DNA of 64,000 nt from positions 807,501 to 871,500 of the forward strand of contig NZ_AP023367.1 of assembly GCF_014218335.1 (NCBI RefSeq). Reading direction: 5' to 3'. This document shows, piece after piece, positions 60,278 through 64,000 of this stretch (within the stretch, counting starts at the first letter, position 1; every line of letters starts with the position of its first letter). The DNA comes from Anaerocolumna cellulosilytica (GTDB lineage Bacteria; Bacillota; Clostridia; Lachnospirales; Lachnospiraceae). The position numbers were made by a program, and so were the translations under genes. A model generated the notes under the pieces. The model did no database searches, was not told the DNA's origin, and worked only from the letters and a program-made list of their open reading frames with translations.

Positions 60278-60901
60278 TTGAGGTATATAAGTAGAAAATT
60301 GAGCAGTAACAGTATAAAGGAACGAGTTATTTTTAGCTTGGTGCTCCTCTTGGTGTTGTTTTTTGGATTTACTGTAGTAAGTTATTTTACACTACCGGAA
60401 GAATTTTTAAAAAATAGAAATCCCTTACAAAACTGGGAAACTTCTAGCAATACGCTTGTTCTTTTATTACAAATTTTCTTCTATAATATGCTTTCTGTAT
60501 TGGTTATTACTTTTGGCAGTCTCTTTGGTAAGAAAAAAGAATCTGAATTAAACTATTTGTCTGTTGGTTATCTGGTATTGTTTACACAGATTAGTATTAA
60601 CGGAATTGTGTTAGGGACATGGTCTTTTTCTATGGGGGGTACATCGATTCCTCTTATGAACAGAATTAACCGTACTTTTGATATTGTACATAGAGCAGGT
60701 CTCTGGGAGATGATAGGACAGTTACTCATTACCTGTGCCCTGGCTCGTATTGCCATAGTATTGACCAGTGGTAAAGAGACGAAGACCCGAAAAATTCAGG
60801 AGATTAACCTAACGAAAGCTGAAAAGTTTACATTAACATCCGGTTTTATACTGATGCTTGTGGGGGCTGTTATTGAAAGCGTTGCTATAAATATGCTTTA
60901 A
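60278..60901 (+). CDS. Multi-pass membrane protein of unknown function
   Basis: A 207-residue protein with about five TM segments (about 20-37, 60-80, 95-115, 140-160, 185-204). It vaguely recalls SpoIIM-like proteins (large loop before a VHRAGLWEMIGQLLITCALARIA segment, comparable with the PHGIFELPA segment), but I cannot show membership. The start is TTG with AAGGAGG about 12 nt upstream. Confidence 0.7.
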   Translation: MRYISRKLSSNSIKERVIFSLVLLLVLFFGFTVVSYFTLPEEFLKNRNPLQNWETSSNTLVLLLQIFFYNMLSVLVITFGSLFGKKKESELNYLSVGYLVLFTQISINGIVLGTWSFSMGGTSIPLMNRINRTFDIVHRAGLWEMIGQLLITCALARIAIVLTSGKETKTRKIQEINLTKAEKFTLTSGFILMLVGAVIESVAINML

Positions 60902-61184: not shown

Positions 61185-61353
61185 AAAAAATTTATATTTG
61201 AAGTAAATTCAAAAGAATATTTAGATGACAAAAGTCAACTAAGACATTGACAAATGTCGTCGAAAGGATTAAAGTATAAGTATGGTAAATGCTGGTTAAT
61301 ATTGTGACTACTATTACCAAAAGTATTAAAATAAGAAAAATGGAGGTAAGCTT

Positions 61354-61755
61354 GTGGAGTATAAAGAAAATTATGAAAGACTACCTGATTCAGAATTACT
61401 TGTGATGCAGATTATATGGCAGTCTAAAAAAGCGATAGGGACAGGTAAAATTGTGGAATTGGTATGTGAACAAAAAAACTGGTCTCGCTCTACCGTACAG
61501 GTATTGCTGGCACGTTTGGAGGAACGGGGTTTTGTTGAAATAAAAAAAAGGGGAAGGCTTAATTATTATGTTCCATTAATAAAAGAAGAGGAGTATTTGA
61601 CAAAAGAAACAAAAACTTTTCTTGGGCAGTTTTATGGGAATTCATATAAAAAATTAATTGCTTCCCTAGCGCAAAATCAAGAAATAACAGAGGAAGATAT
61701 AGATGATATTATTCAAATCATAAAAGAGGCAAAGGGGGGTGAGGAGGTTGAGTAA
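61354..61755 (+). CDS. BlaI/MecI-family repressor
   Basis: A 133-residue winged-helix repressor. The N-terminus (RLPDSELLVMQIIWQS) and recognition region (NWSRSTVQVLLARLEERGFVEIKKRGRLNYY) fit the BlaI/MecI/CopY family. The C-terminal dimerisation domain contains the region usually cleaved by the paired BlaR1 protease. The start is GTG, with GGAGGT upstream. It overlaps the sensor gene, as in bla/mec systems. Confidence 0.93.
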   Translation: MEYKENYERLPDSELLVMQIIWQSKKAIGTGKIVELVCEQKNWSRSTVQVLLARLEERGFVEIKKRGRLNYYVPLIKEEEYLTKETKTFLGQFYGNSYKKLIASLAQNQEITEEDIDDIIQIIKEAKGGEEVE

Positions 61756-63712
61756 TTTGTTTCTAACAATAGTAAGCTTGTCTGTGGTATGCTCTTTTAT
61801 CATTGGATGTGTTGTATTAATAGATAAAATATATAAGAAGAACTATTCAAGGCAATGGATATACATAACCTGGGCTGTTATTGCAATTCGTCTTATAATA
61901 CCTGTAAACCTGGGAATAATAGAGGCACCGGTATCGGTTAATACGAATATGACTTTTGCAGGCTTTAATGCATCTGTTGAAATGGTAAGTAATGAAAGTT
62001 TTAAGGTTTCAAAGGATGCTAATTTAGAGCAAGGAAATAACATAATAACTGAAAGCAATAATACGGAAGAAAGCAGCATTCCTTCAGCAGAATTTATACA
62101 GAAGGCTGATTCAAACAAAATTGACAGTAGAGCACAGTATTCATTTTCTATACGCGACAGTTTTACTTTTATCTGGGTAACGGGTTTCATAGTCTTTTTA
62201 CTCTATCATTTAACAGCATATGTGTACCTTAAAGTAAAATTGAGACGATGGTGTATTTCATGTAAAGATGAAAAAATAGTACATGAATTTCAAACACTTT
62301 GTATAGAAATGGGAATTACCCATAAGATAAACCTCTTAATTTGTAACCAAGTAAAATCCCCAATACTAATTGGGATTATTAAGCCTTGCATTATCTTACC
62401 CACACAAGAATTTACTTTGGAACAATACCGCTTTATATTAAAACATGAATTAATTCATTATAAGCATCACGATTTACTGTATAAATTTATTTTATTGTTA
62501 GCAAATGCTGTACACTGGTTTAACCCATTCGTACATTATATGGTGTATCTTGCTAATAACGTCATTGAATTATATTGTGATGAAAGATTAATTGCTGGCA
62601 ACAATCTATCGTATCGTGAAAATTATAGTAAAACAATACTTCAGATAATGACTGGTACTGGGAAAAAGGATTATATCCTTCTTTCAACCGGTTTTAGCAG
62701 CAGAAAGAAACAGTTAAAAAACCGTTTCTATCAGATAATGAATTCTAAACCAAGTAAAAAAGGGGTTGTATTTGTCGTAAGCATGATTTGTCTTATCTTA
62801 GTTGCCGGTAATGTGATGGCCTGGTTTTTACCTGTTAAGAATGTTAATGCCGATCGGAAGGGTATGCTAAATAGTGCAGAAAATATAACTACTCTTTCTA
62901 ACCTCCCACAAGATAGTGAGTCTGTCCCTGAGCCATTAGAAAAGGTAAACAATATATTAGTGGTTGGTATTGACGGGAATAACACGGAAGATTACTTGCG
63001 TGCAGACAGTATTTTAATGGTTAGTATAAATCCTGACACAAAAAAAGTATTCCTAACTTCATTTTTACGTGATATATATGTGGAGATACCACAACAAGGT
63101 AAACATAAATTAAGTATGGCTTTTGAATTAGGCGGTACCAATCTTATAAAGAACACCTTAGAAGAGAACTTTGGGATTACAATTGACCATACAATGACCA
63201 TACAAATGAAGGTCTTTGAAGATATTATTAATTCCATCGGCGGAGTAAGAATAACTTTAACAGAGAAAGAAGCAGACTTTCTTAATACTACTAATTACAT
63301 AACTGAAAAGAAAAACAGGAATGTAATTGCCGGAGAACAGATATTAAATGGTAATCAAGCACTTGGATATGTGCGTGTAAGTAAAGTACCTACCCTACAG
63401 GGAGAGCAAAATGACTTGGGTAGAACCCTGCGTTTAAAAGAAGTAGTATTGTCTGTCATTGAAGATTGCAGCAAAAAGGATATCAAGATACTGACACAGG
63501 TTGCCACAGATTTTATTTCTATTGTGTCGGCTGATTTAAGAATAGATAAAATAATTGAATGTTTTAATCTTGTAATGGAAGAGGATGTTACCATTCAAAA
63601 TTTAACGATTCCTGTAAAAGACTCTTACACACAGAACATTGAGAAGGGCAGGATTATCCTTGACATTGATTTAAAAGTAAACAGGAAGGAGTTGGAACAA
63701 ATCAATCAATAG
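61739..63712 (+). CDS. BlaR1/MecR1-type M56 metalloprotease fused to an LCP domain
   Basis: A 657-residue fusion. Three N-terminal TM segments (about 7-28, 42-60, 140-165) lead to a cytosolic M56 peptidase with the zinc motif HELIH at residues 236-240 and ELYCDERL near 277-284. A fourth TM segment lies near 343-366. The extracytoplasmic C-terminus (about 402-650) is not a penicillin-binding domain but a LytR-CpsA-Psr domain: RADSILMVSINP, SFLRDIYVEIP, HKLSMAFELGG, INSIGGVRI and NGNQALGYVRV...LGRTLRLKEV. LCP proteins attach glycopolymers to peptidoglycan from lipid carriers. The start is GTG 61739 or TTG 61748. It overlaps BlaI by 17 nt. Confidence 0.92.
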   Translation: MRRLSNLFLTIVSLSVVCSFIIGCVVLIDKIYKKNYSRQWIYITWAVIAIRLIIPVNLGIIEAPVSVNTNMTFAGFNASVEMVSNESFKVSKDANLEQGNNIITESNNTEESSIPSAEFIQKADSNKIDSRAQYSFSIRDSFTFIWVTGFIVFLLYHLTAYVYLKVKLRRWCISCKDEKIVHEFQTLCIEMGITHKINLLICNQVKSPILIGIIKPCIILPTQEFTLEQYRFILKHELIHYKHHDLLYKFILLLANAVHWFNPFVHYMVYLANNVIELYCDERLIAGNNLSYRENYSKTILQIMTGTGKKDYILLSTGFSSRKKQLKNRFYQIMNSKPSKKGVVFVVSMICLILVAGNVMAWFLPVKNVNADRKGMLNSAENITTLSNLPQDSESVPEPLEKVNNILVVGIDGNNTEDYLRADSILMVSINPDTKKVFLTSFLRDIYVEIPQQGKHKLSMAFELGGTNLIKNTLEENFGITIDHTMTIQMKVFEDIINSIGGVRITLTEKEADFLNTTNYITEKKNRNVIAGEQILNGNQALGYVRVSKVPTLQGEQNDLGRTLRLKEVVLSVIEDCSKKDIKILTQVATDFISIVSADLRIDKIIECFNLVMEEDVTIQNLTIPVKDSYTQNIEKGRIILDIDLKVNRKELEQINQ

Positions 63713-63942: not shown

Positions 63943-64000
63943 ATGAAGATAAATATATTAACCGGAAGATTTGGAATGGGACATATAACCGTTGCAAAGG
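63943..64000 (+). CDS. Glycosyltransferase, MGDG synthase-like (partial, cut by window end)
   Basis: Only 19 codons are visible: MKINILTGRFGMGHITVAK. The ILTGRFGMGH start is the nucleotide-sugar binding turn of the MGDG synthase/UgtP family, which adds sugars to diacylglycerol. GAGGAG lies upstream. The rest is outside the window. Confidence 0.6.
   Translation, partial: MKINILTGRFGMGHITVAK

Follow-up and report, generated by a model that had tools for sequence, protein, structure and literature searches.

The window (the whole 64,000-nucleotide stretch of Anaerocolumna cellulosilytica DNA analysed here) carries a gene for a BlaI-type repressor and, overlapping its ORF by 17 nt, a gene for a 657-residue membrane protein, read from a GTG start, in which a signalling protease of the BlaR1 type (family M56) is fused to a LytR-CpsA-Psr (LCP) domain. 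A putative double operator and a promoter-like sequence precede the pair (Table 1). BlaR1-type proteases sense penicillin in staphylococci, and the best-known role of M56-BlaI systems is in beta-lactam resistance. To our knowledge, what such systems sense outside beta-lactam resistance is largely open, and the same holds for the way in which cells adjust wall-polymer ligation to the supply of precursors.

Table 1. Features of the blaI/M56-LCP locus, in window positions
Feature	Position	Strand	Basis
Putative operator dyad 1, ATGACAAAAGTCAA	61225..61238		double dyad shared with the blaI upstream regions of AGMB13025 and G401
Putative operator dyad 2, TTGACAAATGTCGT, over -35 box	61247..61260		AGMB13025 and G401; overlaps promoter-like match
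Sigma-70-like promoter, TTGACA-17-TAAAGT, 10/12 matches	61247..61275	+	consensus scan
BlaI/CopY-type winged-helix repressor, 133 aa, GTG start	61354..61755	+	Pfam
M56-LCP fusion receptor	61739-63712	+	ORF, Pfam, PDB sequence search, Foldseek
BlaR1-like part, TM1-TM4 and cytosolic gluzincin protease (predicted), residues 10-363	61766..62827	+	Pfam M56, BlaR1 alignment, AF2 pLDDT
Predicted extracellular loop EL1 between TM2 and TM3, residues 62-137	61922..62149	+	poorly conserved, 24%
Predicted extracellular LCP domain, residues 403-657	62945..63709	+	PF03816, PDB alignments, residue table

Domain architecture of the receptor

In Pfam, residues 10-331 of the fusion protein match Peptidase_M56 (E 1.5e-46) and residues 421-577 match LytR_cpsA_psr (PF03816, E 4.9e-29); the LCP part also scores above the cut-off of TIGR00350. 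A sequence search of the PDB recovered the LCP structures 3pe5 (6.7e-29), S. aureus MsrR/LcpA (6.8e-20) and TagT (3e-17), together with the BlaR1 structure 8exp (1.3e-7). Foldseek with an AF2 model returned, at E < 1e-3, only LCP structures (including unnamed LCP-like structural-genomics entries) and BlaR1; this model, built from two input sequences only, reaches a pLDDT above 90 over most of TM1-3 and of the protease core and is of low confidence in its LCP part. When the LCP domain was folded on its own from two sequences, the resulting model was poor (pLDDT 48) and was set aside. Four transmembrane segments are predicted at about residues 10-28, 43-61, 142-160 and 343-361, and their positions, together with the positive-inside rule, place the protease loop with its HELIH motif on the cytosolic side of the membrane and the LCP domain on the extracellular one. 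Pfam, the PDB search, Foldseek and topology thus agree with the initial annotation, which had described a BlaR1-type protease with an LCP domain in the sensor position after TM4, and the LCP fold itself is supported by Foldseek and the PDB sequence search.

The zinc motif HELIH occupies residues 236-240, between TM3 and TM4, with further ligands at E277/D281, and both HExxH and E277/D281 are invariant across 12 of 12 aligned fusions. An autocleavage-like site, LSTG318-F319, aligns with the LSHS-F sequence at which BlaR1 cuts itself (PMC9834060). The NCBIfam full-length BlaR1 model matches the fusion protein over only the first 337 of its 585 positions and stays under its cut-off. With BlaR1/BlaI and MecR1/MecI (S. 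aureus, B. licheniformis; PDB 8exp-8ext) the fusion system shares four transmembrane segments, a cytosolic M56 gluzincin with HExxH, an autocleavage-like site, an extracellular C-terminal sensor after TM4, an adjoining BlaI/MecI-type repressor gene and dyad operators before the operon. It differs from them in its operator sequence (GACAnnTGTC), in a Leu rather than a Phe at the putative P1' position of BlaI, in having no beta-lactamase or PBP gene nearby and, above all, in its sensor, which is an LCP domain instead of an extracellular penicillin-binding (class D beta-lactamase-like) domain. Since a penicillin-binding sensor was looked for and is absent, the fusion protein reads as a relative of BlaR1 that works like a BlaR1 system, yet is not a BlaR1.

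The pocket residues of the LCP proteins Cps2A and TagT bind phosphate or metal or have a stabilising role (PMC7831098). The fusion protein retains the phosphate-binding Arg triad (R444, R546 and R562 for R267, R362 and R374 of Cps2A), the Mg-binding Asp pair (D412 and D423 for D234 and D246) and D559 (D371), and all six residues are kept in all 12 aligned fusions. Two other positions have changed: the second Arg of the R-x-R motif (Cps2A R364) is S548, a Ser seen in the window protein alone, and the usual Gln (Cps2A Q378) is L566. The Arg is kept (R548) in the ortholog of Anaerocolumna sp. AGMB13025, which has the Gln-to-Leu change in common with the window protein. The conserved Arg/Asp motifs that had been claimed for this domain therefore hold for R444, R546, R562, D412, D423 and D559, but not at S548 and L566. 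Between the window protein and the AGMB13025 ortholog the LCP domain is as well conserved (55%) as the protease (56%), compared with 24% for EL1 and 26% for the linker. Because the pocket residues are kept and the LCP domain is as conserved as the protease, binding seems to be maintained, and catalysis probably is in most members. Catalysis is less certain for the window protein, whose catalytic power may have been reduced by the loss of R548 and of the usual Gln. In a thirteenth fusion, from genome G630 (L159/L232), R546 is replaced by Gln and D445 by Asn, and its LCP domain may be a binding-only version.

In common with the LCP transferases TagT/TagU/TagV, LcpA/MsrR and Cps2A, the fusion has the LCP fold and domain profile (PF03816, TIGR00350, Foldseek), the pocket Arg and Asp residues and an LCP domain predicted to lie outside the membrane behind a transmembrane anchor. 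Unlike theirs, its anchor is TM4 of a protease-receptor, its pocket carries the R548S and Q-to-L changes, and its expression is apparently under a BlaI repressor.

Repressor, operator and neighbouring genes

The repressor belongs to Penicillinase_R (PF03965, E 2.4e-29); the overlapping BlaI gene named in the initial annotation is confirmed, and a cognate repressor is supported. Its putative scissile bond is S104-L105, where most aligned relatives have X-Phe (the rows used exclude G401, G110 and the genome's own paralog L096). The two putative operator dyads, ATGACAAAAGTCAA and TTGACAAATGTCGT, lie 22 bp apart upstream of blaI and follow the pattern GACAnnnGTC twice. Sigma-70-like matches in this region are not above those in shuffled sequence, and the argument for the promoter is its position and its overlap with the operator.

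The double dyad arrangement is common to three genomes, those of the window, of AGMB13025 and of G401, a member of another genus. In each, the paired pattern stands before this blaI, and the only match elsewhere is a non-palindromic one in the window genome. On direct reading, the recognition-helix region of BlaI (STVQVLLxRLEERGF) is nearly identical in the three genomes and differs in the other BlaI proteins of the window genome. The latter has three further M56-BlaI pairs (L095, L096 and L097), which resemble the fusion locus in joining an M56 protein to an adjoining BlaI but have no GACAnnTGTC dyads before them; the C-terminal regions of their M56 proteins, of about 240-370 aa, have no Pfam match and are possibly unknown sensor domains. 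A fifth BlaI-type gene (L098; G000:C1:3153444-3153770) has no adjacent M56 gene.

The genome-wide search for BlaI operators thus recovered the double dyad at its own operon, but no second real dyad pair. A wide regulon is rejected, as two-mismatch operators number 238 in the window genome versus 272 for the reversed-pattern control; of the one-mismatch sites listed, most lie inside genes. Since the real double dyad pair is confined to this blaI promoter in three genomes, BlaI probably controls chiefly its own operon, a case of autoregulation rather than of a wide regulon, and some regulon may exist through single or degenerate dyads.

The genes downstream of the fusion, all of them envelope genes, encode an MGDG-synthase-like protein, a polysaccharide deacetylase and an LPG-synthase-TM protein. 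The first had been taken by the initial annotation as a sign of an envelope theme. This does not stand, and the cluster was rejected as a functional partner: in AGMB13025 the MGDG-synthase-like ortholog is 2.8 Mb from the fusion, and the congener G002 has the gene without the fusion. At the fusion loci read, a BlaI gene overlaps or adjoins the receptor gene, and blaI is the sole neighbour common to them. Of the signals suggested by the initial annotation, lipid-linked glycopolymer is compatible with the data and may be what is sensed. Wall-teichoic-acid precursors are unlikely in the strict sense, since a search of the window genome and of two congeners found no member of the TagA/WecG family; any polymer involved is probably something other than canonical wall teichoic acid. 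Upstream of the operon, a membrane protein encoded at 60278-60901 weakly resembles SpoIIM (E 1.1e-4, below cut-off).

Distribution and repeated origin of the fusion

The source genome is a single contig of 5.43 Mb, and AGMB13025, an independent complete single-contig genome of the same genus, encodes a full-length ortholog (51% identity) with the same blaI; the join is real. Fusions were sought in 392 genomes at the level of the order, 391 at that of the class and 398 at that of the phylum, with the three best candidates per genome scored; this gave at least 13 M56-LCP fusions, a lower bound that comprises the window protein, the AGMB13025 ortholog and 11 others. The phylum-wide sample (398 genomes, three best candidates each) added none, and the fusion is a sparse feature.

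In a tree of LCP domains the fusions form two separate groups, and constraining them to one clade is rejected (p-AU 1.7e-109). In a tree of M56 domains they fall in about five places with at least four forced changes, and a single clade is again rejected (p-AU 1.6e-4); both trees contain long branches, which leaves the exact counts of origins soft. Under these models a single common origin of all fusions is not tenable. As both data sets reject the single-clade topology, the join was, on phylogenetic grounds, assembled or shuffled more than once, always with LCP in the sensor position, and this repetition is the strongest reason to regard the pairing as functional. An origin on a mobile element was rejected: no full-length match was found in plasmid or phage records, and viral contigs yielded only M56 relatives.

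The architecture was not found in the literature searched, most subscription journals and domain databases being outside that search. No paper was found there that brings together BlaR1, M56 and LytR-CpsA-Psr, or M56 and LCP family annotations, and those naming both BlaR1 and LytR-CpsA-Psr concern, in the parts available, unrelated topics. Some resource may nonetheless list it without remarking on it.

Proposed mechanism and competing explanations

The reading that we prefer, and to which we give about an even chance, is a BlaR1/BlaI-type receptor with an LCP sensor that acts as a substrate-inducible, self-limiting wall-polymer ligase. We read from sequence the order of its domains, the motifs of its protease and LCP parts, the overlap with blaI, the double operator, conserved and confined to this promoter, and the recurrence of the fusion; its ligand, signal transmission, BlaI cleavage and transferase activity we infer. 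In BlaR1, an extracellular loop fills the active site of the sensor; the ligand displaces this loop and the protease then cuts BlaI (PMC9834060). In the fusion system at rest, BlaI bound to the double operator at the -35 box would hold back both blaI and the fusion gene. The LCP ligand would most likely be a glycopolymer linked to undecaprenyl pyrophosphate, or else the pyrophosphate carrier of that polymer; on entering the pocket it would, by analogy with BlaR1, displace EL1. The change would travel via TM4 and the EL1 loop and release the cytosolic zinc protease, which would cut BlaI, putatively at S104-L105, so that more M56-LCP protein is made. As no second operator target turned up and most of the catalytic pocket is preserved, what is induced is probably the ligase domain itself.

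If this is true, a wall-polymer ligase would be induced by its own substrate. The recurrence of M56-LCP proteins points to an undescribed coupling of wall-polymer attachment to gene control, in which the LCP sensor domain itself suggests the likely ligand class and its repeated recruitment indicates that the pairing works. More tentatively, at somewhat less than even chance, we propose a recurrently evolved receptor class in which a wall ligase domain, able to bind or process its substrate, derepresses its own gene by proteolysis and is sensor and effector in one. The blaI/M56-LCP pair offers a compact two-gene system, with a defined putative operator, for studying ligation in relation to precursor supply.

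It is unlikely, although to be taken seriously, that the LCP domain does no more than bind lipid-linked polymer and that BlaI controls other envelope genes in trans via weaker sites, possibly including the downstream MGDG-synthase-, deacetylase- and flippase-like genes by read-through. The sensor of BlaR1 is itself an enzyme domain with reduced catalysis, as is well established, and S548 and L566 in the window protein, the loss of R546 in G630 and the failure to find a terminator ahead of the downstream gene at 63943 fit such a role. However, the double operator occurs at the operon's own promoter only, most one-mismatch sites fall within genes, the downstream cluster is unlinked in AGMB13025 and the LCP pocket is otherwise conserved.

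Instead of the normal substrate, the receptor might detect an antibiotic or an envelope stress by which the undecaprenyl cycle is blocked, and so provide inducible protection. This would follow the BlaR1 paradigm and suit the G630 locus, where a gene for the undecaprenyl-pyrophosphatase BacA/UppP immediately precedes blaI, on the same strand. We consider this reading rather improbable: UppP occurs at this one locus, and the other fusions have no obvious resistance gene beside them. That the protein is mainly an LCP enzyme, with M56 as anchor or quality-control protease and BlaI signalling of minor weight, is very improbable given the invariant protease motifs, the BlaI gene overlapping or adjoining at the fusion loci read and the operator conserved in group A, even though TM4 coincides with a TagU-type membrane anchor and the TagU model aligns from residue 340 on. 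The joining of two genes by an assembly or sequencing error has practically no chance of being right and is ruled out by full-length orthologs in independent genomes.

Other genes accompany single fusions. The G630 locus has a gene for an SLH-domain protein downstream, and at the G401 locus (L225) the blaI/M56-LCP pair stands between two RimK-like ATP-grasp genes, of which the downstream one overlaps the fusion gene by 8 nt.
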